Source: Rubrobacter tropicus (lineage in GTDB: Bacteria; Actinomycetota; Rubrobacteria; Rubrobacterales; Rubrobacteraceae). From it: a stretch of DNA of 64,000 bases. Position numbers and translations under genes: made by a program. Positions 2 through 18,946 of this stretch are shown one piece after another. Each line of letters opens with the position of its first letter. Position 1 is the first letter of the stretch. Location: assembly GCF_011492945.1 (NCBI RefSeq), contig NZ_CP045119.1, forward strand, positions 744,001-808,000. The letters run 5' to 3'. Below the pieces are notes generated by a model. It worked only from the letters and a program-made list of their open reading frames with translations, had not been told where the DNA came from and searched no databases.

Positions 2-847
2 AGAACGGTTGCGCCGGGGCGGACTTCGGAGACGCCGGAGTTGTTACCGGGTTATTTCGCGCGAATCGACAAGGGCAGGTTGCTCTCACGGGAGGAGGAG
101 ATGGATCTCGCGCGGAGGGCGCAGGCCGGTGATCTTCGGGCGAGGCAGCGGCTCATCGAGAAGAACCTGAGGCTCGTGGTGAGCGTCGCAAAGAAGTACA
201 GGGGGCAGGGCTTGCCCTTCGAGGACCTCATCCAGGAGGGCAACCTCGGTTTGATGAAGGCCGTCGAGAAGTTCGATCCCGAAAAGGGTTGGAGGCTCTC
301 GACGTACGCGACGTGGTGGATCCGCCAGGGCGTGCAGCGCGCCGTCGCCGACAAGGGAAGGACGATCAGGGTGCCGGTGCACAGGGGCGACAAGGTCCGC
401 AAGATGGCCCGCACCTACAACGAGCTCTCCGCCGAACTGGAGCGGGAGCCCACCGACGAGGAGGTTGCCGGGCGGCTTGAGTGGCCCGTGGAGCAGGTGC
501 GAGATCTGAAGAGCTCCCTGTGGGACGCGACGAGCCTCAACCAGTCGCTCTCCTCAGATGGCGACGGTTCGGAGCTCGGCGAGCTCATCACCGACGAGCG
601 GTCCTCGGATACCGCCGGGGAGGTCATCAGCGAGATCGAGACCGCGGGCCTCGAAGAGGCCATCGGGCGGCTCCCGGAGCGTCACAGGACCGTCCTGATC
701 CGTCGCTACGGCCTCGGCGACGAGGGCGTCTCCACCCTGGCCGAGCTCAGCGACGAACTCGGCATCTCCCGCGAGCGCGTCCGCCAGGTCCAGCGGGAGG
801 CCGAGCGGATGCTCGCCACGAGCGAGTACGGCCGGGCGGCGGCCTAG
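2..847 (+). CDS. RNA polymerase sigma-70 family factor (RpoD-like, probably group 2), 5' end outside window
   Basis: Directs core RNA polymerase to promoters. In order: a region 1.2-like helix ending LLSREEE; region 2 with [24 protein letters not shown] and [10 protein letters not shown] (the -10 recognition and melting helix); a region 3 with RIPV-like [10 protein letters not shown]; and a region 4 helix-turn-helix ending [18 protein letters not shown]. The frame is open to the left edge. The first start inside the window is TTG at 41 (268 residues from there) with no clear ribosome site, so the gene probably begins upstream. Even so it is shorter than a housekeeping RpoD, and region 1.1 is not visible, which suggests an alternative primary-like (group 2) factor. 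A strong hairpin follows the stop. Confidence 0.9.
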
Positions 848-873
848 CGCCCAACGATCTACGACACCGACAC

Positions 874-914
874 GAAGCCGCCACGCGAACAGCGCGTGGC
901 GGCTTCAAGGTTTT
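874..914 (+). terminator. Terminator of the sigma factor gene
   Basis: A perfect 14-bp stem (874-887 with 893-906), loop AACAG, followed by AAGG and TTTT at 911-914. It lies 27 bases after the sigma factor stop codon. Confidence 0.8.
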
Positions 915-993
915 CAGGTTCCAAGGCTTTCAGGGGTGCCCGGTGGAGCGGGGTGCTGGCTTCCAACCCCTCAAAACCTCAAAGCCTCGAGAC
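907..993. repeat. Short-word inverted repeat R1 (8-mer class)
   Basis: Left arm (907-938) is built from words such as AAGG-TTTTCAGG-TTCCAAGG-CTTTCAGG. Right arm (964-993) is built from CCTCAAAA-CCTCAAAG-CCTCGAGA words, roughly the reverse complement. About 25 unique bases separate the arms. It starts where the terminator hairpin ends. Member of the repeat family described in the findings; here the period is nearer 8 than 7. Confidence 0.6.
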
Positions 994-1033
994 CTTCTGC
1001 ACGACGTAGCGAGGTCTCCACGCCAGCCGCTTC

Positions 1034-1067
1034 TATACTAGGAAGCCGCAAAGACTTCGACGAAAGG
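1034..1067 (+). promoter_or_regulatory. -10 box and ribosome site of the TPR gene
   Basis: TATACT at 1034-1039 is a near-consensus -10 box; no good -35 was found. AAAGG at 1063-1067 lies 6 bases before GTG 1074 and decides that start. Confidence 0.5.
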
Positions 1068-1073
1068 TTTTCC

Positions 1074-1397
1074 GTGGAGAACGCGCAGAACAGGATCGAC
1101 TACTTCGAGCGGATGCTGGCGGACAACCCGGAGAACCCGACGGGGCTGCTCGCGCTCGCCAACGAGTACAAGAAGGCCGGGCGCGACGAGGACGAGGCGG
1201 CCGTTCTCAAGAGGTACGTCGAGGCCAACGAGGACGAGGGCAACGCGTACCTGCGCCTGGGCGAGGTGTTGACGAAGTTGGGCCGGGAGGACGAGGCCAG
1301 GGAGGCCTACGGGACGGGCATTCGGCAGGCCGAGAAGTTCGGGCACAGCGGGATGGCCGAGGACCTCAGGCTCGCGCAGGTCCAGCTCGGGAGGTAG
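1074..1397 (+). CDS. Small tetratricopeptide-repeat protein
   Basis: A 107-residue, highly charged helical protein of two to three TPR-like helix pairs (FERMLADNPENPTGLLALANEYKK; then EDEGNAYLRLGEVLTKLGREDEAREAYGTGI, described here as motif A-Y-L-R-L-G...A-R-E-A-Y). It has no signal peptide or membrane segment, so it is a probable cytoplasmic adaptor. GTG 1074 was chosen because AAAGG precedes it by 6 bases. Upstream codons in frame run through the repeat R1 and the -10 box and are unlikely to be coding. Its partner is unknown. It stands alone between the sigma factor and the 2-oxoglutarate dehydrogenase genes. Confidence 0.75.
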   Translation: MENAQNRIDYFERMLADNPENPTGLLALANEYKKAGRDEDEAAVLKRYVEANEDEGNAYLRLGEVLTKLGREDEAREAYGTGIRQAEKFGHSGMAEDLRLAQVQLGR

Positions 1398-1398
1398 G

Positions 1399-1509
1399 CT
1401 TGAGGTTGCAGGTCGCCTGCTCCGCAGGCTCTCAGGCTTCAGGGTTGCGAGGTCGGGACCTGGACCCGCCGACCGAACCTGTAACCTGAAGCCTGTAGCC
1501 TGAAACCCG
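1399..1509. repeat. Short-word inverted repeat R2 (CAGGNNN class)
   Basis: CAGGCTTCAGG at 1433-1443 is a perfect inverted match to CCTGAAGCCTG at 1485-1495. Around it are 7-mers: CCTGTAA, CCTGAAG, CCTGTAG, CCTGAAA on the right and CAGG-rich words on the left. The element begins just after the TPR stop codon. The same 11-mer pair recurs in R6. Confidence 0.75.
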
Positions 1510-1563
1510 GCGTCGCGGCCTCCGTTGGTGGCGGTGTAAGAGAGAGCCCCTCTGGGGTAAAAC

Positions 1564-1587
1564 CATACCTGCCATGTGGGGTATCAT
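1564..1587 (+). promoter_or_regulatory. Possible promoter/operator of the 2-oxoglutarate dehydrogenase operon
   Basis: Between repeat R2 and the E1 gene lies TATCAT (1582-1587), a fair -10 box, overlapped by an inverted repeat ATACC (1565-1569) / GGTAT (1580-1584). No convincing -35. The rest of 1398-1712 apart from R2 shows nothing else recognisable. Confidence 0.3.
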
Positions 1588-1712
1588 AAAGAGGATCAAG
1601 TTGTCTTCTAGCCTTGCCAAAAGTGCTAAGCGGGGGGAGGCGGGGTTGGTGCCCCGTCTCCCCTCATGGACGCCTGGACTTCTCTGAAAAAGCAACGTGA
1701 GGGTGTGATCCT

Positions 1713-4577
1713 GTGGAGAGACAATCGGAGTACCAGTTTTACGGGCCCAACCTGGGCTACGTGCTCGAGTTGTACGAGAGGTATCGCGAAGACCCGAACT
1801 CCGTGGACGAGGGGGCTCGGGAGTTCTTCGAGTCCTGGAGCCCGCCGCGGTCCAACGGGGCGAACGGGAGTGCCGCGACGGCGTCGCGGGATCTCGAGCT
1901 CGACGTCGAGAAGGCCGTCGGGGCCTCCAAGCACGTCAGGCACATCAGGGACTTCGGGCACAGGGCGGCCAAGCTCGACCCGCTGGGCAGCGAGCCGCCC
2001 GGCGACCCGACGCTCGACCCCGAGTTCTACAGGATCACGGACGAAGACCTGGAGCACCTGCCGCCCCTCATCATCGGCGGCCCCATAGCCGAGAAGAGCG
2101 CGACGGCCAGGGAGGCGGTGGAGAAGCTCAGGAACCTCTACTGCAACACGACGGGCTACGACTTCGGCCACGTCCACGACCCGGACGAGCGGTTCTGGCT
2201 CAGGGAGGCCGTCGAATCCGGGCGCTTCTACAAGCGCATGGAGGGCGACGCCGCCAAACGCCTGCTCATGCGCCTGACGCGCATAGACACCTTCGAGAAG
2301 TTCCTGCACAAGTCGTTTCTCGGCCAGAAGCGTTTCTCCGTCGAGGGCAACGACATGGTCGTGCCGATGCTCAACCTGCTCGCCCGCCGGGCCACCGAGG
2401 GCGGCACGCCCGAGATGGTGCTCGGCATGGCCCACCGCGGGCGCCTGAACGTGCTCGCCCACGTGCTGGACAAGTCCTACTCCAGGATCTTCGGCGAGTT
2501 CCAGCAGCCGGATAAGGGCGAGTCCTCCTCCGCCGCGAGCCGTCCGGGCGACGCCTGGGTGGGCGACGTGAAATACCACCTCGGCATCCGGGGCTACCAC
2601 CTGAGCGACGCCGAGGCCGACGAGCAGGTCCTCGTCAACCTCGCGCCGAACCCGAGCCACCTCGAACACGTGAACCCCGTGGTAGAGGGCATGGCCCGCG
2701 CGGCGCAGGAGAAGCGCGACAACCCCGGCCCCCCGGTCAGGGACGAGGAGGCGTCGCTGCCGGTGCTCCTGCACGGCGACGCGGCGTTCCCGGGCGAGGG
2801 CGTCTCGGCCGAGACGCTCAACCTCAGCCGGCTGCCCGGTTACAGGACCGGCGGGACCATCCACATCATCACCAACAACCAGCTCGGGTTCACGACCGAG
2901 CGCCAGGACGCGCGCTCGACCACCTACGCGAGCGATCTCGCCAAGGGGTTCGAGATCCCGGTCGTCCACGTCAACGCCGACGACCCGGAGGCATGCCTGG
3001 CGGCGACCCGGCTGGCCTACGCTTACAGGGAGAGGTTCCACAAGGACTTCCTCATAGACCTGATCGGCTACAGAAGGTTCGGCCACAACGAGGGCGACGA
3101 GCCCGCCTACACGCAGCCGGTGATGTACCAGAAGATCAAAGACCATCCGACGGTGCGCGAGTTGTGGGCCGAAGAGATCGAGGCCAGGGGCGTCATCACG
3201 GCCGAGGAGGCCGAGCAGATGGTCGAGGAGGTCTTCTCCCGCATGGAGGAGGTCCGCCGGAAGCCCAAGGACGAGGTGGGCGACGACGACCTCGAGACCG
3301 AGCAGCCCCGCACCCCCGTCGTGGAGGTCCCCGAGACGGCCGTCCCGGCCGAGAAGCTCGTCGAGCTGAACGCCGCCCTCCTGGAGCGCCCCGAGGGCTT
3401 CACGCCGAACTCCAAGCTCGAGCGGCTCTTCCAGAAGACGCGGGCCAACCTAGGCAACGAGGGGGAGGACAGGATCGACTGGGCCCACGCCGAGGCGCTC
3501 GCCTTCGCCTCGCTGCTCTCCGACGGCGTCCCGATCCGGCTCACGGGCCAGGACTCCGAGCGCGGCACCTTCTCCCAGCGCCACCTCGTCCTGCATGACG
3601 AGAAGGTGGGCGAGGACTACGTCCCGATGCAGAACATCCCGCAGGCCAGGGCCTCCTTCGCCGTCCACAACAGCCCGCTCTCCGAGATAGCCGTGATGGG
3701 CTTCGAGTACGGCTACACGATGAACGCCGACGACGCGCTCGTTTTGTGGGAGGCCCAGTACGGGGACTTCGCGAACGTCGGACAGCCCATGATCGACCAG
3801 TTCATAGTCTCCGGCCAGGCCAAGTGGGGCCAGACCTCGGGCCTGGTAATGCTCCTGCCCCACGGCTACGAGGGGCAGGGCCCGGAGCACTCCAGCGCCA
3901 GGCTGGAGCGTTTCCTGCAGCTCGCGGCGATGGAGAACGTGCGGATCGCGAACCTTACGACCGCCGCCCAGTACTTCCACCTGCTCAGGGCGCACGCGCA
4001 GCTCAAGGAGAACAAGCGCCCGCTCATCATCATGGCGCCCAAGAGCCTGCTCCGGCACCCGATGGCGGGCTCCGGCCTCAAGGATCTCTCCGAGGGGCGT
4101 TTCCGGACAGTGCTCGACGACGAGGAGGCCAGGGGGCGTGCGGAGAACGTCGAGCGCCTGATCCTGTGCTCCGGCAAGTTCTACACGGAGCTCGTGGGGA
4201 GCGATTCCAGGGAGGAGGACGACTCGACCGCGGTGGTCAGGATCGAGCTCCTCTACCCCTGGCCCGAGGAGAGCGTTCGGGAGGTTATCGACGGCTATCC
4301 CAACCTGCGGGAGGTCGCCTGGGCGCAGGAGGAGCCCGCCAACATGGGCGCCTGGAGCTTCGTCCGGCCGCGCCTGGAGGAGCTTCTCGACGGGGAGGCG
4401 CCGCTCCGCTACGTCGGCAAGCCCGCCCGCCCGAGCCCGGCCCAGGGGTCGGCCAGGTACCACAAAGAAGAGCACGCGGCCATCGTGCGCGAGGCCTTCG
4501 AGGAGAACGGGGACGCGGGAAAAGACAAAGAGACCGTGGAGGCCACGCAGGACAGGGCCTCCGCCCCGAGCGCGTAG
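1713..4577 (+). CDS. sucA: 2-oxoglutarate dehydrogenase E1 component
   Basis: Thiamine-diphosphate enzyme that decarboxylates 2-oxoglutarate and passes the succinyl group to the lipoyl arm of E2 in the TCA cycle. It has 954 residues, the usual E1o length. The N-terminal YQFYGPNLGYVLELYERY segment is the E2-docking region. Then come GMAHRGRLNVLAHVL, the cofactor-binding stretch GDAAFPGEGVSAETLNLS followed by NNQLGF, RRFGHNEGDEPAYTQP, and near the C-terminus LLPHGYEGQGPEHSSARLERF. It lacks the N-terminal acyltransferase domain of the mycobacterial Kgd/OdhA fusion, in keeping with a separate E2 34 bases downstream. GTG 1713 is preceded by GTGAGGG. No E3 gene is in the window. Confidence 0.96.
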   Translation: MERQSEYQFYGPNLGYVLELYERYREDPNSVDEGAREFFESWSPPRSNGANGSAATASRDLELDVEKAVGASKHVRHIRDFGHRAAKLDPLGSEPPGDPTLDPEFYRITDEDLEHLPPLIIGGPIAEKSATAREAVEKLRNLYCNTTGYDFGHVHDPDERFWLREAVESGRFYKRMEGDAAKRLLMRLTRIDTFEKFLHKSFLGQKRFSVEGNDMVVPMLNLLARRATEGGTPEMVLGMAHRGRLNVLAHVLDKSYSRIFGEFQQPDKGESSSAASRPGDAWVGDVKYHLGIRGYHLSDAEADEQVLVNLAPNPSHLEHVNPVVEGMARAAQEKRDNPGPPVRDEEASLPVLLHGDAAFPGEGVSAETLNLSRLPGYRTGGTIHIITNNQLGFTTERQDARSTTYASDLAKGFEIPVVHVNADDPEACLAATRLAYAYRERFHKDFLIDLIGYRRFGHNEGDEPAYTQPVMYQKIKDHPTVRELWAEEIEARGVITAEEAEQMVEEVFSRMEEVRRKPKDEVGDDDLETEQPRTPVVEVPETAVPAEKLVELNAALLERPEGFTPNSKLERLFQKTRANLGNEGEDRIDWAHAEALAFASLLSDGVPIRLTGQDSERGTFSQRHLVLHDEKVGEDYVPMQNIPQARASFAVHNSPLSEIAVMGFEYGYTMNADDALVLWEAQYGDFANVGQPMIDQFIVSGQAKWGQTSGLVMLLPHGYEGQGPEHSSARLERFLQLAAMENVRIANLTTAAQYFHLLRAHAQLKENKRPLIIMAPKSLLRHPMAGSGLKDLSEGRFRTVLDDEEARGRAENVERLILCSGKFYTELVGSDSREEDDSTAVVRIELLYPWPEESVREVIDGYPNLREVAWAQEEPANMGAWSFVRPRLEELLDGEAPLRYVGKPARPSPAQGSARYHKEEHAAIVREAFEENGDAGKDKETVEATQDRASAPSA

Positions 4578-4610
4578 GTGGATGAGATCAGAGAGGTAAG
4601 GTGAACCGCC

Positions 4611-5915
4611 TTGGCGGATGAGATACACGTTCCGGAGCTCGGGGAGTCCGTCGCCGACGCGACCGTCGGGCGCTGGTTGAAGCAGGAGGGCGACGCCGTC
4701 TCGGCCGGAGACGCGCTCGTCGAGCTCGAAACGGACAAGATCAACTTCGAGGTGGAGGCCGAACACGACGGCGTCCTCGAGTCCATAGCGAAGGCCGAAG
4801 GCGACACGGTAACGGTCGGCGAGGTCATCGGAACTTTAGGCGAGGGCAACGGCTCGGCGCCGCAGCAGGAGGCCGAGGAAGAAGCCTCCGGCGAAGAAGA
4901 GGCGGCCGGGGAGCAGCCTGAGCCAGAGGCGGAAGCGGAGCAGGAGTCGCAGTCCGCAGCCGAGGAGACGAACGGACACAGGGAGGATGGGGGCGGGCGG
5001 GCCTCGCCCTCCGTGCGGAAGCTGGCCGAGGAGTACGGGGTCCAGCTGGCCGAGGTCTCGGGGTCCGGATCCGGCGGGCGCATAACGCGCGAGGACGTGG
5101 AGCGCCTGATCCGACAGCAGGGCGCGACCTCGGCCCCCGAGAAGCCCGCCGAGCCCGAGCAAGACGGCAAGGCGCAGCAGCCCGCCCCTCAGCCCGCGGC
5201 CCAGAACGGCCGGGCCGACCTCGAAGAGAGGGTCCGCGTCTCGCGCCGCCGCCAGACCATCGCCCAGCGGCTGGTCGAGTCCCAGCAGACCGCCGCGATG
5301 CTCACCACCTTCAACGAGGTGGACATGTCGGCGGTCATGGCCCTGCGCAAGCGGCGCAAGGAGTCCTTCCAGGAGCGTACCGGCGCCCGCCTCGGTTTCA
5401 TGAGCTTCTTCGCCAAGGCCGCCATCGGCGCCCTGAAGGCCTATCCCAAGGTCAACGCCGAGCTTCAGGGCAACGAGCTCGTCCTCAAGCACTACTACGA
5501 CCTCGGGGTCGCCGTCTCGACCGACGAGGGGCTCGTCGTCCCCGTCGTGCGCGACGCCGACCGCAAGAGCTTCGCCGAGATAGAAGGCGGAATAGCAGAT
5601 TTGGCTGTCAAGGCCCGCGAGGGCAAGCTCAAGCTGGAGGACCTCACCGGGGGGACGTTCACCATCACCAACGGCGGCATCTTCGGGAGCCTGCTCTCTA
5701 CCCCGATCCTCACCATGCCGCAAGTCGCGATACTCGGGATGCACAAGATCCAGGAGCGCCCGATGGTCGTCGACGGCGAGGTCCAGGTCCGCCCGATGAT
5801 GTACCTCGCCCTCTCCTACGACCACCGCGTCATAGACGGCGCGGAAGCGGTTGGCTTCCTGGTGCGCATCAAGGAACTCATAGAAGACCCGGAGTCGCTG
5901 CTGCTGGAGGGGTAG
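4611..5915 (+). CDS. sucB: Dihydrolipoyl succinyltransferase, E2 of the 2-oxoglutarate dehydrogenase complex
   Basis: Transfers the acyl group from lipoyl-lysine to CoA and forms the complex core. Domains: one lipoyl domain (1-77) with lipoyl-Lys43 in ETDKINFE; a long Glu/Ala linker; a peripheral-subunit-binding domain (about 130-167, [10 protein letters not shown]...[11 protein letters not shown]); and the acyltransferase core ending in the catalytic [12 protein letters not shown] 4611 is preceded by GAGAGGTAAGG, and the gene sits 34 bases after E1, so one operon is likely. Position next to the E1o gene supports succinyl rather than acetyl specificity; the sequence alone does not separate the two firmly. 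Confidence 0.92.
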
Positions 5916-7240: not shown

Positions 7241-8181
7241 GTGGCGGAGGGCGATCTTGTCGAGAGGTTGCTCTCCGGCGACCGGCGGGCGCTTGCGCGG
7301 GTCATCTCCAAGATAGAGCGAGAAGACCCCGAGACGCCGGGGATTATCGAGGAGATCTACCCGAGGACCGGCAAAGCCCTGACCGTCGGCTTCACGGGGC
7401 CGCCGGGCGTCGGCAAGAGCAGCATAATCGCCAAGCTGATCGAGCTCTACCGCAAGGAAGACAAACGCGTCGGGGTGGTCTCCGTGGACCCTTCGAGCCC
7501 TTTCTCGAAGGGCGCCATCCTCGGGGACCGCATCCGGCTGTCGGACCATTTCCTGGACCCCGGTGTGTTTATCCGGTCCATGGGGAGCCGGGGCATCTCG
7601 GGGGCCTTGCCGGCGGCTCGAGGCTGGCGGCGATGGCGATGGAGGCCGCGGGGATGGACGTGGTGCTCTACGAGACCGTGGGCGTCGGTCAGGGCGAGGT
7701 CGAGGTGGCCTCGGCGGCTGACACGGTCGTGCTGGCGTTGCAGCCCGGGGCCGGGGACGCGGTCCAGGCATTGAAGGCCGGGGTCATGGAGATCGCGGAC
7801 GTCTTTTGCATCAACAAGGCGGACCACCCGAGGGCCAAGGGGGCCGCCTCCGAGGTAAGGTCCATACTGGAGATCGGGCAAGAGCTCGACCCCGACCCCT
7901 GGTTCCCGCCCATCGTCATGACCCGCGGCGACACCGGGGAGGGCGTCGAGGAGTTGAAGGAGGCGATCCACAAACACCGCTCCTACCTGGAGGAGAGCGG
8001 GAAGCTCGAAGACCGCCGCAGGGCCGCGCTCAAGAAGTTCGTGGTCGAGTGGGCGACGGACAGGCTGGAGAAGGAGATGCGCGGGCGCCTCGAACGCGAG
8101 GACACCGAGACCATGGAGAAGGTCTACGGCCGCGAGCTGGACCCGATTGCCGCCTCGGAGAGGATCTTCCGCAAGACGTAG
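7241..8181 (+). pseudogene. meaB: meaB (methylmalonyl-CoA mutase-associated GTPase), frameshifted
   Basis: MeaB/ArgK-type G3E GTPase that protects and reloads adenosylcobalamin mutases. The first part (7241 to about 7600) has the P-loop GPPGVGKSS and VVSVDPSSPFSKGAILGDR. The second part (about 7600-8181) continues in another frame with DVVLYETVGVGQGEVEV, the GTP-specificity motif NKAD and the C-terminal dimer helices. The break is at a run of five G (7600-7604): six G would restore the family sequence SMGSRGISGGLAGGSRLAA. This is either a one-base loss in the organism or a homopolymer sequencing error. The likely partner mutase is at 48,214. GTG 7241 follows the osmC stop by 4 bases. Confidence 0.85.
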
Positions 8182-8768: not shown

Positions 8769-8810
8769 TCCCGGCAAAGTCGGGACAGCGCTCCCATGAC
8801 GGCGGGATAG
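8769..8810. repeat. Palindrome-bearing repeat P, copy 1
   Basis: TCCCGGCAAAGTCGGGA (8769-8785, arms TCCCG/CGGGA) followed by a conserved CCATGACGGCGGGA tail. A second copy is at 11,002-11,043. Both lie in the leader regions of two-component genes. It may be an operator or a dispersed repeat. Confidence 0.5.
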
Positions 8811-8871: not shown

Positions 8872-9339
8872 GTGAACGACGAGACCATACTTCTGGTGGA
8901 GGACAACCCCGACGACGAGCTGCTCACCCGACGCGCCTTGAAGAAGAGCGGCATCCCGAACCGGGTGGCCGTCGTTCGCGACGGGGCAGAGGCCCTCGAC
9001 CTGCTGCTCGGGGCCGATGAACTGCCGCGCATGGTGCTGCTCGACCTGAACCTCCCGAAGGTCGACGGGCTCGAGGTGCTGCGCCGGCTGCGGGCCGACG
9101 CGCGCACGAGGAGCCTCCCCGTCGTGGTCCTCATCTCCCGGGAAGGGGAAGGACCACCCGGTGGGGGCGACCACGTCTGGCGGGCCGACGTCTGCATAGA
9201 CAAGGGCGTGGACTACGACGCCTTCCAGCGCGCCGTGCGGCGTCTAAGGGCGCTGCTGTCGGAGGCGAGGCCCCTTGCGTCGGGCCGGACATCGTTCTGG
9301 AACGCCGCGCGCGGCGGGACCGGAGTTCGGACCGCCTGA
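8872..9339 (+). CDS. CheY/Rcp1-like single-domain response regulator
   Basis: A stand-alone receiver domain (155 residues) of the Rcp1 type that usually pairs with phytochrome-like or hybrid kinases. Acidic pair E10-D11 in LLVEDNPDDE; phospho-acceptor Asp in MVLLDLNLPKVDGLEVLRRL; the conserved Lys in CIDKGVD. The usual Thr/Ser switch is in VVVLISREGE. The last 40 residues are low-complexity and basic. GTG 8872 follows GAGAGGAGAT. There is no output domain and no kinase in the same transcript. The peptide gene starts 259 bases later with its own promoter, so a functional link is unproved. Confidence 0.88.
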   Translation: MNDETILLVEDNPDDELLTRRALKKSGIPNRVAVVRDGAEALDLLLGADELPRMVLLDLNLPKVDGLEVLRRLRADARTRSLPVVVLISREGEGPPGGGDHVWRADVCIDKGVDYDAFQRAVRRLRALLSEARPLASGRTSFWNAARGGTGVRTA

Positions 9340-9461: not shown

Positions 9462-9530
9462 GTTTGCGGCAAATGTTCCTCGGGGTATGCTGCCGCCCTG
9501 GAGGACGGCGAGGGGCGAGCCGCCGCAAAC
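9462..9530 (+). promoter_or_regulatory. Promoter of the comX-like/comQ-like genes, with a wide inverted repeat
   Basis: TTGCGG (9464-9469), a 16-base spacer and TATGCT (9486-9491) form a plausible promoter. GTTTGCGGC (9462-9470) recurs perfectly inverted as GCCGCAAAC (9522-9530), start-to-start distance 60 bases. The half-sites contain TTGCGG and CCGCAA, the same half-sites as the Bacillus ComA box, but there they are 4 bases apart. A regulatory role is inference. The rest of 9340-9598 shows nothing else. Confidence 0.4.
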
Positions 9531-9598
9531 GGCACCCGTGGCGAACAGATGGTCGGTTGCCGCGAACCCGACAAAGAATCCGAACAGAAAGGAAGCTA

Positions 9599-9871
9599 GT
9601 GGAACGACAGGAAGGAACCGGGGGATACCGGCGGGACGAGGCGCTCATGGCGGTGGCCCGCTTGTCGATAAGCGACGCCGATTTCCTGAGGGGCATGAAA
9701 CGGGACCCGGCGTCCACGCTCTGGCAGTACGGGTTCGCCCTGAGCCCGCAGGAGATGCGAGAAGCGGAGGATTTCCTCGGCAACAGGAGAGACGCCGGAG
9801 ACGACGACATCCGTGAGGACCTGGAGAGGGAGATCCGGGCTTCCGCCGAACGCCGTATCTGGAACAACTAG
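9599..9871 (+). CDS. Candidate ComX-like pheromone/RiPP precursor peptide
   Basis: A 90-residue protein with no match I recognise with certainty. The core ADFLRGMKRDPASTLWQYGF plus ALSPQEMREAE has the pattern 'FL..MK.DP...L..YGF.LS..E' shared by leader peptides of small modified peptides (Franean1_4349 and Nif11-like types) and, loosely, by Bacillus ComX. A charged middle follows, and the C-terminus is AERRIWNN with Trp third from the end, exactly where ComX of B. subtilis (..RQWGD) carries its prenylated Trp. Start GTG 9599 has AAAGGAAG 5 bases upstream. ATG 9647 would give 74 residues. It lies 12 bases before an isoprenyl-transferase gene. It could instead be an ordinary small protein. Confidence 0.5.
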   Translation: MERQEGTGGYRRDEALMAVARLSISDADFLRGMKRDPASTLWQYGFALSPQEMREAEDFLGNRRDAGDDDIREDLEREIRASAERRIWNN

Positions 9872-9883
9872 GTATCCCGCCGC

Positions 9884-10933
9884 GTGGACGCGCGCGGCGA
9901 CGCGCCGGGGGTCGGTGGGGAGCCGGGCGAAGACCTGGAGCCGATGCGCCGTCGGGTCGAGAGGGTCTTCGCGTTCCTGGAGGAGCTCGTCTGTGCGCTC
10001 CCCGTACCCGTGGTTCACAAGGGGTTGCTCCAGGCGCACGTGATAACGGTCGGCGAGGGGGCGATGGCCTACCCCAGGATGGCGGCCGTCCAGGTGCCGC
10101 TTCTGGTCCACGCGGCCGTCACGGGGGACGAGGAGCCGGCCATCCCGGTGGCCGCGGCCTGCACCGCCCTGCACCTGGGAGGGCAGTTGCAGGACGGCAT
10201 CCTGGACGATGAGCTGTCGCCCTTCTGGTATGCACGGGGCACGGGGATCACCACCCTGGCGGCGACCACCCTGTTGGGTTCGCTCCCCCAGCGCTCCATC
10301 GACCGTCTGCGGCTCCAGGGGGCGCCGCCGGACAGGCTCTGGGCGCTTGCCCGCCGGTTCGCGGACGCCCTGCTGGCGGCGATGGCCGGCCAGCACGAGG
10401 ACCTGATCTTCCCCGACCTGAAGGACGTGTCCCTGGAGGAGTGCCTGGCCATGGTGGGGCGCAAGAGCGGCGCCCCGACCGCCCTGCTTGCGAGTTCGGG
10501 CGCGACCCTGGCGACCGGGGACTCTTCCAGGATCGAGGCGTTCGCGGCCTTCGGCCTTTGCTACGGCGTCGCCAAGCAGCTCATAAACGACGTGCACGGC
10601 ATCTGGGGCGAAGCCGCAAGCCAGGACCTCCTGAACGGCAGGCGCCCGTTCCCGGTGGTCCACGCCCTGACCGTCCTGGACGGAGACCGCCGGGAAGAGC
10701 TGCGGGGCCTGCTCGCCCTCTCCCGCGAAACCAAGCGGCGTCACGACGGGGTGAGGGCCATGCTCGAGGCGGCGGGATCCGTCCGGTATACGGCCTCGAT
10801 GGTGTGGCTTCACAGGGAACGGGCCAAAAGACACCTGGCCGTCGCATCACCCCAAGAACCCGCCGGCCGGGAGCTCCGGTCGCTGCTGGATGGCCTGACT
10901 ATCCTGCCCAAAGCCGAGGGTGCCCTGAGGTAA
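9884..10933 (+). CDS. ComQ-like isoprenyl transferase (polyprenyl synthetase fold)
   Basis: All-helical polyprenyl-synthetase fold, 349 residues. The first Asp-rich motif reads QLQDGILDDE rather than DDxxD. The middle has AMAGQHEDLIFPDLKDVSLE, then MVGRKSGAPTALLASSGATL. The second Asp motif is degenerate, QLINDVHGIWG, where chain-elongating synthases have DDxxD. As I recall Bacillus ComQ, it has D-I-M-D-D, GQHDD and a D-Y-H at these three places, so the pattern is closer to ComQ than to FPP/GGPP synthase. That suggests transfer of an isoprenyl group to a peptide Trp. GTG 9884 lacks a good ribosome site; ATG 9944 is an alternative. A plain short-chain prenyl diphosphate synthase remains possible. 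Confidence 0.6.
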   Translation: MDARGDAPGVGGEPGEDLEPMRRRVERVFAFLEELVCALPVPVVHKGLLQAHVITVGEGAMAYPRMAAVQVPLLVHAAVTGDEEPAIPVAAACTALHLGGQLQDGILDDELSPFWYARGTGITTLAATTLLGSLPQRSIDRLRLQGAPPDRLWALARRFADALLAAMAGQHEDLIFPDLKDVSLEECLAMVGRKSGAPTALLASSGATLATGDSSRIEAFAAFGLCYGVAKQLINDVHGIWGEAASQDLLNGRRPFPVVHALTVLDGDRREELRGLLALSRETKRRHDGVRAMLEAAGSVRYTASMVWLHRERAKRHLAVASPQEPAGRELRSLLDGLTILPKAEGALR

Positions 10934-11001
10934 ACACGGCCCCAGACCGGACCCCGCGGCCCCTAGCCGGGACGAGGACCTCGGACGACGGGCGCGCAAT
11001 G

Positions 11002-11043
11002 TCCCGGGCAGATCGGGACACGAGACCCATGACGGCGGGACAG
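11002..11043. repeat. Palindrome-bearing repeat P, copy 2
   Basis: TCCCGGGCAGATCGGGA (11,002-11,018) followed by CCCATGACGGCGGGACAG, nearly the same as 8769-8810. It lies in the 310-base gap between the comQ-like and kinase genes. The rest of that gap (10,934-11,243) has no gene I can support. Confidence 0.5.
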
Positions 11044-11243
11044 CCGGGAAAGTAGGCTTATCCCGATGGTCGTACCAGGTCTCGTGGTTTGGGAGATACG
11101 GCATTGAGACGCGGGAGAAAGAACGAACATACGCCCAGGGGCCACCGCGCCCGGTACGCCGGGGTGCAACGCCGTGGGGGGACTAGAATGCCAGGACGGA
11201 TACGGCGTGTGGGACCTGGCGGTCGGGGCGGCGCGGCTTCGTT

Positions 11244-13532
11244 GTGGGCGAAGCTGCCTGGAAGCGAGGGGTGCGGCGGGTATATGCTGTGGTCGTGAGC
11301 CCCAGGTTCGACAGCCGCGGGGAGCCCGCGGGTAAGCCCGACGCCGTGGCGTCCCGTTCGCCGAACCAGCGCAGGTCCCACCTGACGCTGGTGGGGTGGA
11401 TGGTGTTCGTGGCGTTGAGCGTGGGGCTGCTCCTCGCCAGCATCCCGGCGCACTACGAGGCCCTCACCAACTTTGCCGGCGCCGATGCGGGCCCCGACGT
11501 CTTGCGCGCCAACCTGGAGAAGGCCGGCGTCTCCGTGGAGTTCTACGCCACGTACCTCATCTCCACCGGCGCGGCCGTGGCGGCGGTGTGGGTGGCGGTG
11601 GGCGTCGTTATCCTGCTGCGCAGGCCCGACGACAGGATGGCAATCTTTACCGCCGTGACCCTCGCGACCTGCGCCGTGTTCTTCCTGAACAACGGGCCCC
11701 TGGTGCTGGCGGAAGAGTACCCGGTCGCGTGGCTGCCGGTTCGTCTGATGGCGGTCTTCGGCTCGGTCTCGTTCATGGCGTTCTTGTACCTGTTCCCCAA
11801 CGGCCGGTTCGCGCCGCGCTGGACGCGGTGGCTGGTCCTCTTCTGGCTCGCGCACGAGGCCGGCTACTACCTGTTCCCCGGCACCGTGTTGGACGTCGAG
11901 AGCGCGTCTCCGCTGATCGACTTCGTGCTCGTCTGCACGGTCCTGTTGGTCGGCCTGGGCTCGCAACTCTACCGCTACCGTCGCGTGTCGGGCCCGATCG
12001 GGCGCCAGCAGACCAAGTGGGTGGTCTTCGGGACGGCGTCGAGCCTGCTCGGGGTCATAGCGCTCCAACTGCTCTTCTTTACCTCTCCCACGCTTCTCAA
12101 CTATGGCTCGCCGTACAGCTTCGTGGTGGCGGCGGGCAGCGACGGTTTCACGCTCCTGATCCCGCTGTCGATAGGCGCCGCGATCCTGCGCCGGCGGTTG
12201 TGGGATATCGACATCGTCATCAACCGGGCGCTGGTCTACGGTATCCTCACCGCCGTCGTGGTCGGCGTCTACGTGCTGGTCGTGGGCGGCCTCGGGTCGC
12301 TTCTGCAGGCGCGCGGGAACCTCGCGCTGTCGCTGACGGCCACGGGCCTCGTCGCCGTCCTCTTCGCGCCGCTGCGCGAGCGCCTCCAGCGCGGCGTGAA
12401 CCGCCTGATGTACGGGGAGCGGGACGACCCCTACAGGGTCCTATCGCGCCTCGGGCGGCGCCTGGGGGCCGCGATCGAGCCGGGGACCGTCCTGCCCACC
12501 ATCGTCGAGACGGTGGCCGGGGCGCTCAAGCTGCCCTACGCGGCCATCTCGATCCGGCGCGGCGAACGAGGCTTCGAGGTGGCCGCGGCCCACGGAACCC
12601 CGACGGGCGAGGAGACGGTGTTGCCGCTCACCTACGGCGGCGAGACCCTGGGCCAGCTCCTGCTGGCCCCACGGACCCCGGGGGAGCCCTTCAGCCCGGC
12701 GGACAGGAGCCTGCTCGAGGACCTCGCGAGGAACGCCGAGGTGGCCGTCTACGCCGTGCGACTGACGGACGACCTGCAACGCTCGCGCGAGCGGCTCGTC
12801 ACGGCGGGCGAGGAGGAGCGCCGGCGCCTGCGCCGCGACCTGCACGACGGCCTCGGCCCCACGCTCGCTAGCCTCACTTTAGGCCTCGACGTCTCGCTCA
12901 AGCTGCTCAAGAAGAACCCGGACGAGGCCGAGGAGATGCTCTCGCGCCTGAAGGCCCAGACAAAGGAGGCCGTCGTGGATATCAGGCGGCTGGTCTACGG
13001 GCTCAGGCCCCCCGCCCTCGACGACCTCGGGCTCGTCGCGGCCATCAGGGAGCAGGCGGCGGCCCACGGGCGCCTGCGCGGGGAAGGCGAAGGGGGGAGT
13101 GGGCTCGGCTTCCGGATCGAGGCTCCTGATGAGTTGCCGCCGCTGCCCGCCGCGGTCGAGGTCGCCTGCTACCGCATCGCCCAGGAGGCGATCACGAACG
13201 TCGCCCGCCACGCCCGCGCCTCGCTCTGCCGCGTGCGCCTCTCAGTAGATCCCAACGGCAGGACACTGGGACTTGAGGTCACCGACGACGGGGTCGGCCT
13301 GCCGGACGCCGCCTCGCGCCGGCCCGGCGTCGGCCTCTCGTCCATGCGCGAACGGGCCGAGGAACTCGGCGGGAAGCTCTCCGTCGCCCCCGCGCCGGAG
13401 GGCGGCACCCGCGTCTCCGTGGTCTTCCCGCTCCCCGCCACCGCGGCACAGAAAGATTCGGAGACCGAAGGGCCGCAGGAAGAGGGCGCCCCGGCGCCGG
13501 TTCGCGTCCCCGGCCGGACCCTCGGGGCCTGA
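11244..13532 (+). CDS. Ten-helix membrane sensor histidine kinase (HisKA_3), ComP-like layout
   Basis: Sensor kinase of the NarX/ComP class. N-terminal half: about ten hydrophobic helices (near 47-66, 103-125, 133-149, 165-184, 195-210, 224-242, 259-279, 301-316, 331-354, 360-377), with an extracytoplasmic loop of about 35 residues after the first. Then a GAF-like domain (about 410-505), a HisKA_3 dimerisation helix EEERRRLRRDLHDGLGP with phospho-acceptor His534, and an ATPase domain (EAITNVARHA; DDGVGL; GLSSMRERAEELGG). It overlaps the regulator gene by TGATG. Layout resembles ComP, but such kinases are common in actinobacteria. The start is uncertain: GTG 11,244, 11,289 or 11,295, none with a good ribosome site. 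Confidence 0.85.
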   Translation: MGEAAWKRGVRRVYAVVVSPRFDSRGEPAGKPDAVASRSPNQRRSHLTLVGWMVFVALSVGLLLASIPAHYEALTNFAGADAGPDVLRANLEKAGVSVEFYATYLISTGAAVAAVWVAVGVVILLRRPDDRMAIFTAVTLATCAVFFLNNGPLVLAEEYPVAWLPVRLMAVFGSVSFMAFLYLFPNGRFAPRWTRWLVLFWLAHEAGYYLFPGTVLDVESASPLIDFVLVCTVLLVGLGSQLYRYRRVSGPIGRQQTKWVVFGTASSLLGVIALQLLFFTSPTLLNYGSPYSFVVAAGSDGFTLLIPLSIGAAILRRRLWDIDIVINRALVYGILTAVVVGVYVLVVGGLGSLLQARGNLALSLTATGLVAVLFAPLRERLQRGVNRLMYGERDDPYRVLSRLGRRLGAAIEPGTVLPTIVETVAGALKLPYAAISIRRGERGFEVAAAHGTPTGEETVLPLTYGGETLGQLLLAPRTPGEPFSPADRSLLEDLARNAEVAVYAVRLTDDLQRSRERLVTAGEEERRRLRRDLHDGLGPTLASLTLGLDVSLKLLKKNPDEAEEMLSRLKAQTKEAVVDIRRLVYGLRPPALDDLGLVAAIREQAAAHGRLRGEGEGGSGLGFRIEAPDELPPLPAAVEVACYRIAQEAITNVARHARASLCRVRLSVDPNGRTLGLEVTDDGVGLPDAASRRPGVGLSSMRERAEELGGKLSVAPAPEGGTRVSVVFPLPATAAQKDSETEGPQEEGAPAPVRVPGRTLGA
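11281..11288 (+). promoter_or_regulatory. Possible -10 box of the kinase-regulator pair
   Basis: TATATGCT at 11,281-11,288, just before GTG codons at 11,289 and 11,295 that are in frame with the kinase. If used, the kinase mRNA would be nearly leaderless. No -35 is evident. Confidence 0.3.
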
Positions 13533-14188
13533 TGGTCGAAGTACCCACGATAAAGGTCCTTATAGCCGACGACCACGCGCTCTTCCGGTACGGGGTCAGG
13601 GCCATGCTCGCCTCCGAGGACGACTTCGAGGTGGTGGGCGAGGCCGCGACCGGGGAGGAGGCCGTCGCGCTCTCCGCGGAGCTCGGGCCCGACGTGGTGC
13701 TCATGGACGTGCAGATGCCGGGCATAAACGGCATAGAGGCGACGCGGCGCGTCGTCGAGAAGGATCCCGGGATCGGCGTCGTCGTCGTCACCATGTTCGA
13801 GGAGGACGACTCCGTCTTCGCGGCCATGCGGGCCGGCGCCAGGGGCTACGTGCTAAAAGGGGCCGACGCCGACGAGGTGATAAAGGTGGTGAGGGCCGTC
13901 GCCGGCGGGGAGGCCCACTTCGGGCCCGAGATAGCCAGGCGGCTGATGGGCTTCTTCTCGGCCCCCAAGCCGGAGGCCAGGGAGGTCTTCCCCGAGCTCA
14001 CCGAGCGCGAGCGCGAGGTACTCGATCTCGTGGCGCGGGGCCTCGGGAACCCCGAGATCGCCCGCAGGCTCTACCTGAGCGAGAAGACCGTCCGCAACCA
14101 CGTCTCCCACGTCTTCCTGAAACTGCAGGTAGCCGACCGCTCCCAGGCAATCGTCCGCGCCCGCGAAGCCGGATTGGGCGGCGCGTGA
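13532..14188 (+). CDS. NarL/FixJ-family response regulator, partner of the upstream kinase (ComA-like position)
   Basis: Receiver (about 7-122) with acidic pair D13-D14 in IADDHALFR, phospho-acceptor Asp59 in VVLMDVQMPGINGIEA, Thr in VVVTMFEEDD and Lys in YVLKGADADEV. Then a LuxR-type helix-turn-helix (about 152-215: LTEREREVLDLVARG, NPEIARRLYLSEKTVRNHV). All signalling residues are intact. It starts inside the kinase stop (TGATG), which implies translational coupling and a cognate pair. It occupies the place of comA if the comQXPA comparison holds. Confidence 0.93.
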   Translation: MVEVPTIKVLIADDHALFRYGVRAMLASEDDFEVVGEAATGEEAVALSAELGPDVVLMDVQMPGINGIEATRRVVEKDPGIGVVVVTMFEEDDSVFAAMRAGARGYVLKGADADEVIKVVRAVAGGEAHFGPEIARRLMGFFSAPKPEAREVFPELTEREREVLDLVARGLGNPEIARRLYLSEKTVRNHVSHVFLKLQVADRSQAIVRAREAGLGGA

Positions 14189-14195
14189 GAGCTAG

Positions 14196-14398
14196 TCAGC
14201 CCGCTCCGGCCTGAGGCCTCCGCTCTCGGCACGCGTCGGGCCTGCTTCGCAGCCCCTCGCTTTCAGCAATCAGCTTTCAGCCGTGCAGGGCCCGGCCGGG
14301 CCGCGCACGGCGTGGCGGTTCGGGTACCGGGAGGCGTAGCGTGTACAGACGACCGGCTGACAGGCTGAAAGCGGAGGCGAAGCCGGAGCGGGCTGATG
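14196..14398. repeat. Inverted repeat R5 (TCAGCNN class, long arms)
   Basis: TCAGCCCGCTCCGGC (14,196-14,210) is perfectly inverted as GCCGGAGCGGGCTGA (14,382-14,396). Inside are CTCCGC/GCGGAG, then TTTCAGC-AATCAGC-TTTCAGC (14,260-14,282) against GGCTGACAGGCTGAAAGC (14,355-14,372). The unique centre holds a GC hairpin (GCCCGGCCGGGC near 14,290). It fills the gap between the convergent regulator and oxidoreductase genes. Confidence 0.75.
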
Positions 14399-17590: not shown

Positions 17591-18691
17591 ATGGAGACCA
17601 ACTTCGGGGCCTCTGCGCCCTACACGGTAGGGGTCGAGGAAGAGCTGCAGCTCGTCGACCCGGCCTCGCTCGCGCTGACGCCGGGTATCGGGGGCGTGCT
17701 CGCCGCCCGAGACGCCGCCGAGCTCCCGAAGGAGTCGGTCTCGGCAGAGCTCTCGGCTTCCTGCGTGGAGTTACGATCCCCGGCCAGGAATACGGTCGGG
17801 GAGTTGGGGAAGGAGGTCTTTGCTCTGCGGAAGACCGTCAGGAGTCTCGCCGAGGAAGGCGGGATCTGGCTCGCGGCGGCGGGGGCGCATCCGTTCAGCG
17901 ACCCGGTCCTGCAGGAGATCACGGCGGACGACCGCTACAGGCAGGTGGAGGAGCGGATGGGCTGGCCGGCCCGGATGCAGGCGATCTACGGCCTCCACGT
18001 CCACGTGGCCGTCCCGGACGGTGAGACGGCCATAAAGGCGGTCAACGCCCTCTCACGCCACGTCCCGCTCTTTCTGGCCCTCTCGGCCAACTCCCCCTTC
18101 TGGAACGGCGTCGACACGCGCCTCGCCTCGACGCGCGCCAAGGTCTTCGCCCTCGTCCCCCGCTCCGGCCTGCCCCCGGCTTTTCGCGCCTGGGAAGAAT
18201 TCGAGGTCTACGTGGGCAAGCTGGTGGACGCCGGCCTGATCCCGGACTACTCCTGGTGCTGGTGGGACGTCAGGCCGCACCCCAGGCTCGGCACGGTCGA
18301 GCTGCGCGCCCCGGACGTCCAGACGGACCCTGCCCGGACATCGGCCCTCACCGCGCTCGCCCAGTGCCTGGTCGCGAGCGCCGACGAACACCAGCCCGAG
18401 GCCCCGCTCTTCACCGAAGAGAATAAGTGGAGCGCCACCCGCCACGGCCTCGACGCAACCCTCCACGACTTCTCGACGGGCCACGCCACACCGGCCCGCA
18501 AGCTGGCCCGGACCCTCGTGCGGAGCCTGGCCCCCGTCTCCCAGGACCTCGGGTGCGAAGCGGAGCTCGAAGGAATCCTGCAGATAGTAGAAGCCGGAAA
18601 CGGCGCCCAAAAGCAGCGCCGCGTCCACAACAGGCGCGGCTCTCTGGAGGACGTGGTGAGATACCTGGTTGAAGCGACTTGCGGAGGTTGA
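17591..18691 (+). CDS. ybdK: YbdK-type carboxylate-amine ligase (glutamate-cysteine ligase 2 family)
   Basis: ATP-dependent ligase of the GCS2 family with weak glutamate-cysteine ligase activity in known members; the physiological substrate is uncertain. The N-terminal TVGVEEELQLVDP signature carries the Glu triad. Further along are AELSASCVELRSP, AIYGLHVHVAVPD, LSANSPFW and WWDVRPHPRLGTVELRAPD. Length 366 matches the family. ATG 17,591. The stop codon lies inside a long hairpin (18,674-18,707). Confidence 0.9.
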   Translation: METNFGASAPYTVGVEEELQLVDPASLALTPGIGGVLAARDAAELPKESVSAELSASCVELRSPARNTVGELGKEVFALRKTVRSLAEEGGIWLAAAGAHPFSDPVLQEITADDRYRQVEERMGWPARMQAIYGLHVHVAVPDGETAIKAVNALSRHVPLFLALSANSPFWNGVDTRLASTRAKVFALVPRSGLPPAFRAWEEFEVYVGKLVDAGLIPDYSWCWWDVRPHPRLGTVELRAPDVQTDPARTSALTALAQCLVASADEHQPEAPLFTEENKWSATRHGLDATLHDFSTGHATPARKLARTLVRSLAPVSQDLGCEAELEGILQIVEAGNGAQKQRRVHNRRGSLEDVVRYLVEATCGG

Positions 18692-18707
18692 TACCTCCGC
18701 AAGTCGC
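18674..18707 (+). terminator. Long hairpin spanning the ybdK stop codon
   Basis: A 15-bp perfect stem (18,674-18,688 with 18,693-18,707) and a 4-base loop. The stop codon TGA (18,689-18,691) is in the loop. No T-run follows: the 14-bp tandem array starts at 18,708. Confidence 0.6.
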
Positions 18708-18946
18708 GCTATCAGCGGTCAGCTATCAGCGGTCAGCTATCAGCGGTCAGCTATCAGCGGTCAGCTATCAGCGGTCAGCTATCAGCGGTCAGCTATCAGC
18801 GGTCAGCTATCAGCGGTCAGCTATCAGCGGTCAGCTATCAGCGGTCAGCTATCAGCGGTCAGCTATCAGCGGTCAGCTATCAGCGGTCAGCTATCAGCGG
18901 TCAGCTATCAGCGGTCAGCCAAGAGCAAAAAGCTGAAAGCTGACCG
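18708..18946. repeat. R7: 15 perfect copies of a 14-bp unit plus an inverted right arm
   Basis: GCTATCAGCGGTCA is repeated 15 times without a mismatch from 18,708 to 18,917; each unit is two 7-mers, TCAGCTA and TCAGCGG when read in another phase. After AAGAGCAAAA comes a right arm AGCTGAAAGCTGACCGC (about 18,930-18,946), inverted relative to the array. The array lies between convergent genes and is flanked by two long hairpins. Because 14 is not a multiple of 3, it reads open in all frames as a 14-residue periodic peptide; this is not a gene. Confidence 0.95.

Follow-up and report, generated by a model that had tools for sequence, protein, structure and literature searches.

ComQ, PalQ and the P domain of ChrPC are peptide prenyltransferases resembling trans-isoprenyl diphosphate synthases (trans-IDS; reviewed in PMC13290415), in which the second motif is repurposed for Trp recognition and a conserved Gln precedes that motif; in ChrPC, the prenyl chain is the target of a cyclase domain (PMC13290415). 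In Paenibacillus alvei, the NHLP precursor PalX is prenylated on its C-terminal Trp by PalQ, with the kinase PalP encoded alongside (PMC10853753). Here, we describe a locus of the soil bacterium Rubrobacter tropicus (Actinomycetota) in which a small precursor-like peptide gene directly precedes a gene for a polyprenyl-synthetase-fold enzyme. The locus lies in a window of 64,000 nucleotides, bases 744001-808000 of NZ_CP045119.1, the larger contig of the genome, and all coordinates below are window positions unless another record is named. We believe, with a probability of roughly 0.6, that the two genes form a peptide-prenylating pair and probably represent a previously undescribed form of peptide prenylation with an origin of its own. 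The original prediction, made from the letters of the same DNA, had proposed the locus as a candidate ComQXPA-like signalling system; the closest known system is PalP-PalX-PalQ, which it did not mention, and not Com.

On the + strand, a single-domain response regulator, a 90-residue peptide, a 349-residue synthase-fold protein, a HisKA_3 kinase and a NarL-type regulator follow one another. The coordinates and motifs first predicted for the last four genes were correct, including the RRIWNN end of the peptide and the DGILDD, GQHED and NDVH motifs of the enzyme. The peptide frame runs from a GTG start at 9599 to a TAG stop at 9869-9871, and the frame of the synthase opens with GTG at 9884, 12 bases 3' of that stop. 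The features of the pair are as follows:

9599-9871, + strand: precursor-like peptide of 90 amino acids, with an NHLP/Os1348-clan leader and a short variable tail, ASAERRIWNN (NCBIfam NF038399; alignments)
9632-9779, + strand: leader domain of the peptide, about residues 12-60, predicted helical (conserved residues; model confidence)
9860-9862, + strand: Trp codon TGG, third from the C-terminus, proposed prenyl acceptor in R. tropicus (sequence)
9884-10933, + strand: polyprenyl-synthetase-fold protein, proposed peptide prenyltransferase (Pfam PF00348, 1.9e-11; degenerate motifs; own clade)

Only three further loci yielded orthologues of the synthase: G018 and G023 from the same genus (also L041 and L040) and the 3-kb contig L039, from a bin labelled Pyrinomonadaceae. 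A wider search in the phylum of that bin added no further orthologue, and no relatives turned up in viral_contigs or plasmids. At all four loci an NHLP-clan peptide lies just upstream of the synthase, so that the synteny proposed as a check was borne out, and a transferase without its peptide, which would have spoken against the prediction, was never seen. Among 30 control Os1348-type loci, retrieved from 396 sampled genomes of the phylum, none has a polyprenyl-synthase open reading frame (ORF) within 1.5 kb; thus, the pairing is not explained by such peptides being common. The ratio of nonsynonymous to synonymous substitution rates (dN/dS) among homologues is about 0.55 for the peptide and 0.2-0.4 for the synthase, which argues that both are maintained. 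Judged by this ratio and by the homologous peptide gene preceding each of the four orthologous synthases, the window peptide is a genuine gene, and, by gene order, peptide and synthase are a conserved unit. In G023 the module has a slightly lower GC content (0.58 versus 0.62) and adjoins two tRNA genes, which hints at its mobility.

In chain-elongating synthases, the GGKxxR motif, the RR pair, the second aspartate-rich motif (SARM) and the TGK loop bind isopentenyl diphosphate (IPP) and diphosphate. The Rubrobacter enzyme carries DGILDD (104-109), GQHED (169-173) and NDVH (235-238), and the elements typical of chain-elongating IDS (GGKxxR, DDxxD-RR, FQxxDD and the TGK loop) are lost or altered in 4/4 orthologues. 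Compared with the IDS sequences aligned, all four lack GGKxxR, the RR after the first aspartate-rich motif (FARM) and the TGK loop, and in each the SARM has lost the Phe before the Gln and carries Asn in place of its first Asp. Four real ComQ proteins (encoded in plasmid-borne com loci and taken from database records) share the same losses, while the IDS sequences aligned keep these elements. Of the clues to the enzyme, this comparison of motifs is the most telling. D104, D108, K194, Q232 and D236 are invariant among the orthologues; Q232 holds the place of the conserved Gln before the second motif and is not discriminating, since the chain-elongating synthases compared carry it too.

The four orthologues form a clade of their own (support 100/100) on a very long branch. 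The profile comparison foreseen in the original prediction placed the enzyme nearer to actinobacterial IDS than to ComQ (183 versus 103), and union of the clade with ComQ was not rejected by the approximately unbiased (AU) test (p 0.48). A conventional polyprenyl synthase that elongates chains and has diverged, preceded by a small ORF of no relation to it, would agree with this score, as well as with the best library matches, which are actinobacterial and encapsulin-cargo polyprenyl transferases. The nearest family by sequence is the Family 2 encapsulin cargo polyprenyl transferase (NF041169, 2e-32); however, the match lies far under the cut-off (112.8 versus 450 bits), the IPP site is lost and no encapsulin gene was noticed nearby. 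Keeping in mind that 4/4 orthologues have lost all five IPP/diphosphate-binding elements tested, and that the peptide gene, kept by purifying selection, adjoins the synthase in every case, we consider an ordinary synthase very unlikely. As a separate observation, an Acaryochloris plasmid (L073, 4333-5280) encodes a polyprenyl-synthetase-like protein whose degenerate motifs are ComQ-like in kind, followed by a small hypothetical protein.

The window peptide matches NF038399, the Os1348 family NHLP clan leader, at E=1.6e-5, and its three homologues do so at 3.1e-6, 3.0e-4 and 1.1e-6. It aligns across the leader with better-scoring NHLP-clan peptides of Rubrobacter, D26, F29, D36, L41, G45, L48 and E52 are kept among the orthologous peptides, and profile comparison sets the leader in register with a PalX-type leader of P. 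cellulosilyticus (E=6e-4). The NHLP-clan leader typical of PalXQ-type prenylated ribosomally synthesised and post-translationally modified peptides (RiPPs) is thus present, with scores that are weak and consistent across all four peptides. NHLP leaders are folded helical domains bound by RiPP enzymes (PMC12455567). In the AlphaFold model, which is otherwise poor, a predicted local distance difference test (pLDDT) score of up to 82 is confined to the leader part. No Pfam match to ComX (PF05952) was found for the window peptide, no ComX was found in the R. tropicus genome, and profile comparison of the peptide with four real ComX proteins detected no relation. On its leader matches, the peptide belongs to the NHLP-clan RiPP precursors, not to ComX.

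The tail ends in RRIWNN in the window and in a Trp cluster, GWWRWRVH, in G018, whereas the peptides of G023 and L039 stop about ten residues earlier (LTERHR and LTDAHR, respectively), with tails devoid of Trp. Coding past these two earlier stops was considered and rejected because of out-of-frame gaps between the two intergenic DNAs. Rubrobacter genomes repeatedly carry another NHLP-clan peptide, whose tail is Gly/Pro/Arg-rich and whose gene neighbours a methyltransferase-like one (L020 7706-8038, L023 8371-8703 and relatives).

A search with an NHLP bait of our own making, given the published core DNVRRFFW as its C-terminus, turned up an unannotated PalXQ-type locus in P. cellulosilyticus (L145; NZ_CP054613.1 2690746-2696802, therein 700-5123), which stands on its own evidence. 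A PalQ-like gene lies there with genes for five NHLP precursors and, divergently oriented, a HisKA kinase. Trp is the next to last residue of the precursors, of which four end in NVRK-[YF]-x-W-x and one in EPFIWT; in the PalQ-like protein, the first-motif Asp residues occupy the published positions 89 and 93, and Q203/D206/D210 correspond to Q197/D200/D204. In addition, a plasmid of Tolypothrix sp. PCC 7910 (L147; NZ_CP050446.1 1-1115) carries an unannotated PalQ-like ORF, seemingly spanning the record start, and about 30 bases further on a peptide gene annotated as Os1348 family NHLP clan protein, with a single Trp in its C-terminal part. Since this locus pairs the two, Os1348-type peptides do accompany PalQ-like enzymes. 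By analogy, both loci support the pairing of peptide and enzyme proposed for Rubrobacter.

Like PalP-PalX-PalQ and the P. cellulosilyticus locus, the Rubrobacter locus combines an NHLP-clan precursor with Trp among its last residues, an adjacent isoprenoid-synthase-fold enzyme with D-x-x-x-D spacing in its first motif, and a histidine kinase nearby. The differences are nevertheless considerable. PalQ-like proteins give no Pfam polyprenyl_synt match and keep D206/D210, while the Rubrobacter enzyme shows N235 and, at the fifth place, either G or D; Pal precursors match TIGR03793 NHLP (5e-23), while the Rubrobacter peptide is of the Os1348 type and under the cut-off. The Rubrobacter Trp is third from the end and absent in two orthologues, unlike the last or next to last Trp of Pal precursors, and the Rubrobacter kinase is HisKA_3, unlike the HisKA kinase of P. 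cellulosilyticus. By profile comparison, neither the Rubrobacter enzyme nor ComQ has a detectable relation to the PalQ-like group; thus, the enzymes differ while the architecture is shared, and by descent, judged on these comparisons, the Rubrobacter enzyme is not a PalXQ member.

ComQXPA of Bacillus and relatives (PMC4008528) resembles the Rubrobacter locus in its polyprenyl-synthetase-fold enzyme, the same lost IPP-site elements, a QxxND second motif, a Trp near the C-terminus of the peptide (in the window and in G018), a HisKA_3 kinase and a NarL-type regulator. In contrast, the Rubrobacter peptide is not ComX and has an NHLP-clan leader instead, the enzyme is by profile nearer to actinobacterial synthases, the order is X-Q-P-A, the sensor part of the kinase has no significant similarity to ComP, and the kinase-regulator pair is separable from the rest. 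Judged on these sequences, the locus is not ComQXPA, and the membership originally proposed is not supported. The leader family NF038399 is also that of the Os1348/PosA family RiPPs of Pseudomonas (PMC7726476, PMC12636437); those, however, are modified by HEXXH and MNIO-nitroreductase enzymes, with no prenyltransferase.

The pair is flanked by the following features:

8872-9339, + strand: single-domain response regulator (receiver only; Pfam Response_reg 1.1e-13), an upstream neighbour in G018 too
8769-8810 and 11002-11043 (+ strand, between synthase and kinase): dispersed GC-rich repeat, intergenic, either side of the pair, copies 76% identical
11244-13532, + strand: membrane HisKA_3 histidine kinase with GAF, tie to the pair uncertain (Pfam HisKA_3, HATPase_c, GAF)
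13532-14188, + strand: NarL-type response regulator, partner of the kinase (Response_reg 1.3e-27, GerE 4e-19)

Pfam agrees with the HisKA_3 class first assigned to the kinase; of the ten helices then proposed, at least eight hydrophobic segments could be counted, not clearly ten. Kinase and regulator overlap by one base and lie directly 3' of the pair on the same strand, an adjacency that would fit a full ComQXPA-like circuit, with the prenylated peptide secreted, sensed by the kinase and answered by phosphorylation of the regulator. The ends of the G018 contigs are compatible with the same gene order, with an 88% identical kinase at a contig end, a stand-alone membrane module in G023, 41% identical to the sensor part of the kinase, lies divergently next to the pair, and PalX-PalQ loci adjoin a kinase as well, though of the HisKA type. 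However, an orthologous kinase-regulator pair in G005 (61% and 83%) has the same receiver-only regulator ahead of it and neither peptide nor synthase in between, in G028 kinase and regulator occur by themselves, and the short L039 contig has the peptide-synthase pair without a kinase. The R. tropicus genome encodes three further paralogous kinases of this type, a 310-base gap holding the dispersed repeat separates synthase from kinase, and the sensor part gives no significant match to ComP. Such evidence makes the full circuit unlikely in our view; sensing of the peptide by the downstream kinase, as originally suggested, is possible from its position and weakened by the G005 arrangement.

Several observations weigh against a peptide-prenylating pair. 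C-terminal Trp is found in only two of the four orthologous peptides (window and G018), so that the Trp conservation once expected is seen in half of the homologues, and the NF038399 matches of the leaders fall under curated cut-offs. Profile comparison with two PalQ-like proteins, stand-ins for published PalQ, gave E 0.19 (BLASTP E 0.003). AlphaFold models of the synthase alone (pLDDT 37) and of a readthrough fusion of peptide and synthase across the TAG codon (pLDDT 46) are of low confidence and were left out of fold searches. No protease or exporter was noticed adjoining the pair, where neighbours were not systematically annotated. The missing Trp in half of the homologues and the separable kinase are the chief difficulties of our reading as a whole.

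That no tail residue is common to all four peptides would also suit an enzyme with a small-molecule substrate, which it would prenylate or cyclise either in the manner of a terpene synthase or as Ord1 does with free Trp; the small protein would then be a helper or regulator and not a substrate. Ord1, of related fold, farnesylates free Trp (PMC13290415), and the L039 pair has a divergent neighbour (231-1175, - strand) that is class II terpene-cyclase-like (drimenol synthase, E=2.7e-7) with a DLDDTA motif; no homologue of it was found in the Rubrobacter genomes searched, and no terpene-pathway context in the window. We find a small-molecule substrate improbable, given a leader from a RiPP precursor clan, the PalX-PalQ and Tolypothrix precedents, and tails that vary as RiPP cores do. 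The cyclase-like neighbour also recalls, by analogy, the cyclase domain of ChrPC.

A precursor gene directly adjoining an enzyme stripped of its chain-building residues suggests the attachment of a lipid tail to the peptide. As we envisage peptide prenylation here, the folded helical leader would dock on the adjacent enzyme and present the short variable C-terminal tail. The enzyme, presumably derived from a chain-elongating prenyl diphosphate synthase, would have lost the IPP (acceptor) site and retained the first and last Asp of its first Asp motif for Mg-prenyl-diphosphate. A prenyl group would then be moved from geranyl, farnesyl or geranylgeranyl diphosphate onto the tail, with Trp-88 the likely acceptor in R. 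tropicus by its position. Once an unlinked protease had removed the leader, the product, if exported, would be a prenylated peptide acting as a signal or as a membrane-active RiPP. Modification of the peptide by the transferase, as first predicted, remains the best reading: the motif losses are those of ComQ, and a candidate acceptor Trp is available in two of the four peptides. The genes, the clan of the leader, the conserved pairing and the motif losses are observed, and we infer catalysis, acceptor residue, donor length, export and any sensing by the downstream kinase.

It is tempting to go further and suppose a separate recruitment of a chain-elongating synthase to peptide prenylation in Actinomycetota, distinct from ComQ and PalQ and using an Os1348-type leader; the neighbouring HisKA_3 kinase would then detect the product and, in L039, a class II cyclase would cyclise the prenyl chain further. 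As a whole, we hold this scenario as tentative and rather doubtful. If the prenylation reading is right, isoprenoid-synthase-fold enzymes would have turned to peptide prenylation on more than one occasion, with loss of the IPP site and gain of a leader-bearing peptide partner in every case. This would yield a sequence rule for spotting prenylated RiPPs and an actinobacterial enzyme of unknown acceptor preference, and it would make it possible to test if the product is what the kinases next to such pairs detect.

Elsewhere in the window, a MeaB/ArgK-like GTPase (recognised by eye) appears split over two frames, in overlapping ORFs at 7241-7774 and 7633-8181 (span 7241-8181), and a frameshift or an assembly error is therefore implied. 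A short tandem repeat, SAVSYQRSAISGQL in ORF translations, occupies 18669-18936, and a stretch resembling CAGCTTTCAGC, related to that repeat, occurs near 14262-14284.

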